Assembly (NCBI RefSeq): GCF_003144195.1
Contig: NW_020290001.1
Coordinates: 234,967 to 298,966, forward strand
Source: Ceraceosorus guamensis
Taxonomy: Eukaryota; Basidiomycota; Exobasidiomycetes; Ceraceosorales; Ceraceosoraceae
Length of the DNA: 64,000 nt
Direction of reading: 5' to 3'
Shown here: positions 22,841-23,690 of the stretch, piece after piece
Position numbering within the stretch: position 1 is the stretch's first letter
Layout of the letters: every line of letters begins with the position of its first letter
Program-made: the position numbers and the translations under genes
The notes under the pieces: generated by a model
Databases searched by the model: none
Told to the model about the DNA's origin: nothing
What the model saw: only the letters and a program-made list of their open reading frames with translations

Positions 22841-23508
22841 GCTTCAGCTGCGCTGGCCAAGAGCCATTTCTCTCGTTCTTCTTGCTTTCTTTTGCTTTCT
22901 TCTCACGAAATCAAGCCTCAACGGCTGGCAAGCTTCAACGGCTAGCCTTTTTCTTTTCGCCCGGCTGCGCTTCTCTTGAAGCCTCCGATTTACTCTCACA
23001 AAAGTGCGCGAGCATCCACGTGCACATTCTCCCCGTTTTACAAGTTCTCGTCTTTTGACCGTGTCCCGTCATTGACCTCTCCCCCCCTTTGTTTACGATT
23101 CTCTTGGGGGGCCTTCACCAAAGCCCCCCCTCTCGCACTAGCTTTCCGTCGAAAAGGTCTCAACACAGCTGTTACGTTCCATCCTGTCATCGTACAACAC
23201 TATCACGCATTCACGGCATTCAACTTGCAATCAATTCAGATCACCACGATCAGGGGGTGAGAGAGGCACGGCTTGTCTTTCGCTACGCGAAGCAATGAGA
23301 CGGAATCGAGTCGTATTTCCTTTGACGAACAACATTCTTAAAGAAGAAAAGACTCGCATCGCATGGAGCGACGACATCGCGGTCGCTTAGATCAGGTTCT
23401 GTCAATGAAGAGACTCGGTGGCTCTTTCGCTCAGTGGTTGTGGTGATCCGTTGAGATAACGTCCGCAGTGAGGCGCTCGCCTTTCGACCCCCGCAACCAA
23501 CAAAAAAA
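22841..23508. other. MET6 3' region and spacer before the 5S gene
   Basis: A pyrimidine-rich stretch (22841-23200), probably MET6 3' UTR, is followed by about 300 nt of unassigned DNA. At 23436-23498, 7-nt ends can pair like a tRNA acceptor stem, but no proper T arm or anticodon arm can be drawn, so no tRNA is called. Confidence 0.4.
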
Positions 23509-23509
23509 A
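23502..23509 (-). terminator. Pol III terminator of the 5S gene
   Basis: Eight T residues on the minus strand immediately follow the 3' strand of helix I. Confidence 0.75.
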
Positions 23510-23660
23510 CCTACGGCATCTAGGATTCTCGCGTGGTCCCCCACCGCAATACTGACTAGACCCTACGCAGCAGACGTCCCGTGCGGCTCGCTTCGCTCGC
23601 CGCACTTAACTTAGGAGATCGGACGGGATCCTGTGCTTTGCCAGTGGTATGGCCGTAGAT
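23509..23660 (-). rRNA. 5S rRNA gene with a 34-nt insertion (possibly a pseudogene)
   Basis: On the minus strand the ends pair as helix I (ATCTACGGC with GCCGTAGGT). The interior contains the hallmark 5S blocks: CCATACC, GATCCCGTCCGATCTCC, AAGTTAAG, TAGGGTCTAGTCAGTA, GGTGGGGGACCACGCG and GAATCCTAG. The length is 152 nt; removing 23571-23604 leaves 118 nt, the normal 5S size. Helix III keeps pairing (AGGA with TCCT). A T8 run (23502-23509) forms a Pol III terminator, and TATATATA (23683-23690) lies at -30 to -23. These support a transcribed gene. Against this, helix II pairs poorly as I draw it (ACTGGC against CTGCGT), and the insertion lies next to the internal promoter. It may therefore be a variant 5S, an intron-bearing 5S or a young pseudogene. 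Confidence 0.85.
23571..23604 (-). other. Hairpin insertion inside the 5S rRNA gene
   Basis: The 34 nt lie directly after AAGTTAAG. Together with the preceding G they form a 7-bp stem (GTGCGGC with GCCGCAC) closed by an 11-nt loop that can itself add two G-A and two G-C pairs. The 3' part, ACGGGA, is complementary to TCCCGT in the 5S helix III/loop C region. Confidence 0.75.
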
Positions 23661-23682
23661 GTTATTTAAATAGTGTCACAAG

Positions 23683-23690
23683 TATATATA
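23683..23690 (-). promoter_or_regulatory. Upstream TATA element of the 5S gene
   Basis: TATATATA at -30 to -23 from the 5S start. An upstream TATA near -30 assists Pol III transcription in fission yeast; here its position is the only evidence. Confidence 0.5.

Follow-up and report, generated by a model that had tools for sequence, protein, structure and literature searches.

The interrupted 5S-like gene of Ceraceosorus guamensis described here is no single oddity but a member of a 5S-derived hairpin class that is paired with 5S genes. It lies in the 64,000-nt stretch of contig NW_020290001.1 that was analyzed (hereafter, the window), and units of the same kind, which we term class B and which consist of a TATA promoter, the 5′ half of a 5S gene, and a hairpin, stand upstream of seven of nine normal 5S genes on the same strand (DNA search with the window gene as the query, confirmed with the unit of locus C30 as the query). 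We tentatively read class B, at close to an even chance, as a duplicated 5S-derived Pol III unit that would serve as a co-transcribed leader or an extra promoter, and the window copy as a fused derivative of it.

The original prediction of a 5S gene interrupted by a hairpin, with an intact terminator and an upstream TATA box, is borne out on the minus strand (Table 1). The gene exceeds the curated score of the 5S covariance model (RF00001, 50.8 bits versus a gathering score of 38; E of 1.4e-8 in 7 kb), is the sole Rfam match above gathering score in the window, and carries both Pol III signals, a TATA box at −30 for the start and a T8 run for the stop. It is longer than the common 120-nt 5S gene by a net 33 nt and longer than the 119-nt copy at locus C32 by 34 nt, such that the earlier figure of 118 nt after removal of the insertion was right to within one base; the ends of the insertion can be slid, and its exact borders are not unique. 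The hairpin (7 plus 2 bp) lies in the 3′ strand of loop B, where helix III gives way to helix II; the Rfam model assigned the additional bases, at low confidence, to loop C and flagged many pairs of helices II and III as nonstandard. Beyond loci C19 and C30, the upstream module has no other match in the genome at E values up to 10, and the stretch downstream of the gene returned only its self-match in the genome search. The window also encodes a bZIP protein that matches one from Ceraceosorus bombacis at 92% identity across 77% of its length.

Table 1. Features of the 5S-like gene and its flanks, in window coordinates
Feature	Position	Strand	Remarks
5S-like gene (class B 5′ half + hairpin + 5S 3′ half)	23508..23660	-	153 nt; RF00001, 50.8 bits
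Class B 5S 5′ half, +1 to +55: helix I 5′ strand, helix III, AAGTTAAG	23606..23660	-	Gap-free alignment, 8 loci; model R1, 111.5 bits
Hairpin: 7 bp + 2x2 internal loop + 2 bp + triloop	23581..23605	-	
Short linker 3′ of hairpin	23567..23580	-	First 10 bases common to C41, C42, and C8 units
5S 3′ half	23508..23566	-	Identical to normal 5S genes of C41 and C42 (100% over 63 and 62 nt, T-run included)
TATA box TATATATA, -30 to -23	23683..23690	-	Offset same in 7/8 units, off by 1 in C27
TTGTGACA motif adjoining TATA box	23674..23681	-	TATATATATNTGTGACA genome search
T8 terminator	23502..23509	-	
Upstream module, also at 5S loci C19 and C30	23700..23817	-	88% and 86% identity

Paired by hand, helix I of the window gene has nine of nine standard pairs and helix III four of four, the latter as had been claimed, and helices IV and V are present in the predicted fold. 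The poor pairing attributed to helix II holds in the normal register, but a shifted register gives nine of nine standard pairs with two bulges. Because shuffled versions of the 14-nt segment fold equally well or better in 284 of 500 cases, helix II is evidence neither for nor against selection, and we rejected a functional helix II as a sign of selection in this gene. The whole 153-nt gene folds with a z score of −1.21 (24 of 200 shuffles are as good), similar to that of a normal 5S gene (−1.33). Enforcing helices I, II, and III together with the hairpin gives −53.7 kcal/mol, against −57.0 kcal/mol for the best fold (a cost of 3.3), while enforcing helices I to III in the normal gene at C41 gives −42.0 against −42.1 kcal/mol (a cost of 0.1).

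A genome-wide search with the 5S covariance model, which had been proposed as a check, was run on the 23.8 Mb of the same assembly and gave at least 11 RF00001 matches (47 of 1,093 candidates were scored): at least nine normal 5S genes (119 to 120 nt, 83.4 to 88.5 bits), the window gene (153 nt, 50.8 bits), and a copy at C134 (168 nt, 43.4 bits). DNA searches add C2, which has a promoter and then a 3′ half only, for at least 12 5S loci. Eight of the normal genes, 94 to 100% identical to the C41 gene, make up class A; the gene at C32 is a divergent third class (71% identity to the C41 gene) that reads GATATGG at the place of TATA in other copies. These 12 loci, in three or more sequence classes, support the earlier suggestion of a repertoire of divergent 5S copies.

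Some of the copies have peculiarities of their own. At C2 (L060, 1064-1167, minus strand), the 3′ half that follows the promoter mixes the two class A variants, as judged by eye. The class A 5S gene at C134 (L009, 983-1150) carries a different insertion, about 48 nt long; helix I of this gene has one mismatch (by eye), and the 168 nt fold well below shuffles (z of −3.91). The GCGCACTTGTGCGCC module of that insertion recurs in the linkers of C8 and C42; the only other matches are one on C64, with 3 mismatches, and one of 14 nt on C3 (the reversed control for the short pattern gave one match), with no 5S-like sequence seen by eye in 400 nt around either. The Rfam consensus AAGUUAAG is replaced by AAGCGGAAAC in all eight class A genes; at the same site, the window gene has AAGTTAAG, five other B units have AAGTCAAG or AAGTCGAG, and C19 and C27 have ATAGCGGG or ATAGCAGG.

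The class B unit measures 83 nt and aligns without gaps across eight loci, at a mean column identity of 91%. Seven of the eight units lack a 3′ half of their own, and only the window copy continues into one; the original suggestion of an intron-bearing 5S gene finds no support, given that at seven of eight loci no 5S 3′ half intervenes between the hairpin unit and the next promoter. The class A gene starts 132 nt after the first base of B at C14, C19, C27, and C30, 279 nt after it at C41, and 368 nt after it at C8 and C42. C96 and C32 have normal 5S genes without a B unit, showing that a normal gene can do without one, which counts against a function of class B. C134 retains a decayed B unit, scored at 21.3 bits (E of 4e-4) with R1, a model built from the eight class B units; we rejected R1 as a class B-specific test, since class A 5′ halves score 51 bits and C32 scores 43, and only the excess counts.

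Away from 5S loci, DNA and hairpin-pattern searches of the 23.8-Mb genome found no B units. All 10 genome matches to the hairpin pattern, with up to three mismatches, lie at B-unit loci (reversed control, 0), two of them being second hairpins in the C8 and C42 linkers, and all nine matches of a second hairpin-pattern search lie at 5S loci. A genome-wide palindrome or transposon was rejected as the source of the insertion because the hairpin pattern matches only at 5S loci, and an extended stem around the hairpin, considered for C30 and C14, was dropped because it is not kept in C19 and C27. The linkers between B and A at C8 (L014) and C42 (L012) hold further hairpin-like modules, with R1 scores of 18.8 and 10.4 bits in each, which looks as if the hairpin were spreading locally.

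The promoter of class B is placed consistently, with the TATA box at −30 in seven of eight units and displaced by a single base in C27. Mean pairwise identity (28 pairs of units) is 32% from −45 to −33, 71% in the TATA stretch, 65% from −23 to −15, 34% from −14 to −1, 97% in the first nine transcribed bases, and 91% in the hairpin; the TATA box has thus been retained amid sequence that has diverged. The TATA-TGTGACA motif TATATATATNTGTGACA, with up to one mismatch, lies at 5S or 5S-like starts in 9 of 11 genome matches (reversed-pattern control, 1); we rejected it as a general Pol III promoter motif, as the two other matches (C16 and C125) resemble TA repeats. At the TATA place, the class A genes of C41, C42, and C8 have the weaker CATATACATC. 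T-runs of four or more are absent between B and A in six of seven pairs, C41 having TTTT at −12, and these six pairs show one property expected of a dicistronic gene, namely, no terminator between the upstream unit and 5S.

From the copy number, the spacing, the shared hairpin, the TATA position, and the missing T-runs (six of seven pairs), all of them observed directly, we infer transcription from B and trimming of a leader. RNA started at B would run through the class A 5S gene and end at its terminator, and B would provide an additional start further upstream, together with a structured leader that would have to be removed from 5S by trimming. From the window copy we would expect an RNA of about 152 nt, unspliced and no substitute for ribosomal 5S; the copy itself is probably not a ribosomal 5S.

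Paired changes occur in both stems of the class. Among the eight units, hairpin pair 60-76 is A-U in four, G-C in three, and an A·C mismatch in one (C41), and two stem pairs of the C8 hairpin are broken. Three of the four helix III pairs are changed on both sides in C19 and C27, but these changes separate only those two units from the rest and may predate the truncation. Against 500 shuffles, the covariation score of the eight units (0.264) and their fraction of paired cells (97.1%) were reached by none, the four pairs changed on both sides by 55, and the four further pair types by 377, a control in which two of five measures are reached often by shuffles and which overstates, the eight sequences being nonindependent and from one genome. 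The decayed C134 unit keeps a paired hairpin stem with partly different bases. Palindromes can self-correct during replication, so paired changes are possible without selection. Folding z scores of B plus linker, computed for six of the seven pairs, are modest, from −0.7 to −2.5 at C30, C14, C19, and C27, −1.9 at C42, and −0.9 at C41.

Comparison of loci reveals footprints of copying. C19 and C27 differ by three mismatches from B +1 to the 5S T-run, with a sharp drop outside; BLAST, however, joins −162 to +198 at 88% overall, a weaker similarity that extends beyond the block ends, which are not absolute, and this counts against the copying of a joint transcript. C42 and C8 show no differences between the hairpin and −10. 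They diverge at three of the last nine positions ahead of the 5S start, within the 5S 3′ half, and in the spacer that precedes B, and upstream of B they become similar again (92% from −455). These patterns suggest that an RNA spanning B through the 5S terminator may have been copied back or that its cDNA may have converted the other locus. Fast change just 5′ of the start is a mark of heavy Pol III transcription at tRNA genes; a literature search on transcription-associated mutagenesis at tRNA flanks found nothing with the terms used. The window copy shares its hairpin bases with C42, and its bases past the hairpin resemble C41 and C42; together with the 3′ half identical to C41 and C42 and the upstream module common to C19 and C30, these likenesses make it a mosaic. 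It most likely arose from a B-A pair through loss of the linker, the second promoter, and the class A 5′ half. Such a loss is the shorter history because C19 and C30, which have the same upstream module, carry the B-A pair; conceivably, a full-length class B gene is instead the ancestral state.

The sequence of one genome is compatible with a working class B and with well-kept debris. As debris, which we find plausible but would place below an even chance, the B units would be truncated 5S pseudogenes from a tandem duplication that were copied with the neighboring 5S genes; the hairpin would merely have been carried along, and the window would hold a young pseudogene. Seven of the eight units cannot make 5S rRNA because their 3′ half is missing, decay is ongoing at C2 (promoter and 3′ half only) and C134 (an extra insertion and a decayed B unit), helix II of the window gene is no better than shuffles, and 18 to 83% of filamentous-fungal 5S sequences have been called pseudogenes (Rooney and Ward 2005, as cited in passages of PMC5555474). 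It is harder to see why debris would keep the same 83-nt length at eight loci and the same TATA position at seven of them despite diverged surrounding bases, why hairpin pair 60-76 would change on both sides, or why the stem would survive in the otherwise decayed C134 unit. For the young pseudogene of the original prediction, the nine normal copies fit, but the conservation of the hairpin at seven further loci does not. We consider it rather unlikely, though not far-fetched, that the B units are a new Pol III noncoding RNA or 5S-leader family, a 5S-derived hairpin RNA that most 5S genes would have upstream of them under its own TATA promoter and that, co-transcribed with 5S, would tune 5S supply, with the window copy making a free-standing, expanded 5S-like RNA of 152 nt.

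The remaining alternatives are weaker. The fixed start-to-start distance of 132 nt at C14, C19, C27, and C30, and paired changes that fit a DNA palindrome equally well, would suit a hairpin that is an upstream control site of the class A promoter (a protein-binding palindrome or cruciform), kept as DNA and not as RNA; this is improbable, given distances of 368 nt at both C8 and C42 and 279 nt at C41, the lack of a class A start after the hairpin in the window, and the preservation of helix III and the B TATA box, neither of which such a site would need. That the window gene encodes a functional variant of 5S rRNA, present in some ribosomes with the hairpin as a loop B expansion, we regard as very improbable: its TATA box and terminator, its paired helices I and III, the predicted helices IV and V, and a 3′ half identical to those of normal genes all agree with it, but there is one such copy versus nine normal genes, helix II is not above chance, and the enforced fold costs 3.3 kcal/mol, versus 0.1 in a normal gene. 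SINE3 is a 5S-derived mobile element, and B units at separate loci with different flanks, along with C19/C27 block ends close to transcript ends, recall an element of the SINE3 or Cassandra kind. We give this almost no credence, as all B-unit matches are at 5S loci, so that independent dispersal was not found, and no long terminal repeats or element body were noticed (a casual observation rather than a dedicated search).

The usual picture of a 5S gene is a single unit whose promoter is internal. If, as in the duplicated Pol III unit that we favor, most 5S genes of a genome carry a conserved upstream hairpin unit, that genome would be a naturally occurring example of 5S transcription that is doubled or dicistronic; the boundaries of the B-A copies may record which RNA was copied. 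The window gene also urges caution, in that insertion-bearing 5S-like genes can belong to a conserved class and not be isolated pseudogenes. Among known systems, the 5S pseudogenes of Aspergillus nidulans that Borsuk and colleagues reportedly described in 1988 are fused to a conserved “C block”; as far as that description goes, the likeness lies in several copies of a 5S 5′ half that continue into a conserved, G+C-rich sequence. The 5S of Halococcus morrhuae likewise has a self-contained insertion in the 5S core, but there the 108-nt insertion adjoins loop E in the only 5S, whereas the insertion here is in loop B of one full-length copy among normal ones. Dispersed fungal 5S genes undergo birth-and-death evolution with pseudogenes (Rooney and Ward 2005, cited in PMC5555474), and the present loci resemble those described in passages of that source in being dispersed, in falling into several sequence classes, and in being truncated in some cases; they differ in that the truncated hairpin class precedes seven of nine normal genes and keeps its TATA position and, mostly, its stem pairing. 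As in the dicistronic tRNA-5S genes of Yarrowia lipolytica and Trichomonascus (PMC13130702), a Pol III unit is directly upstream of 5S and a joint transcript is possible, but in the present genome that unit derives from half a 5S gene and bears a hairpin, and no tRNA was found. Cassandra retrotransposons, as presented in part of PMC10853983, also have a 5S-derived promoter outside the 5S gene proper; in contrast to them, no B-unit copies were found away from 5S, and no LTRs were noticed. Literature searches found no paper combining Ceraceosorus and 5S rRNA and no title on a 5S-derived hairpin unit upstream of 5S genes.

Two minor observations concern the flanks of the 5S loci. TTCGA or TCGAA occurs in the first 75 nt past the 5S end at 9 of 12 loci (the flanks of C8 and C42 being shared) and in the next 75 nt at 3 of 12, against a background probability of 0.178 per random 75-mer of the window; tRNAs adjoining the 5S genes, to which this B-box-like TTCGA word might have pointed, were rejected, as none was found at the 12 loci by ARAGORN or by Rfam at E values up to 10. 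Short antisense 5S fragments, recognized by eye, lie beside C30 (L018, 852-865, also a weak R1 match of 8.8 bits with an E of 1) and beside C27 (L017, just 5′ of the first TATA box), and these are possible relics of older inverted 5S copies.
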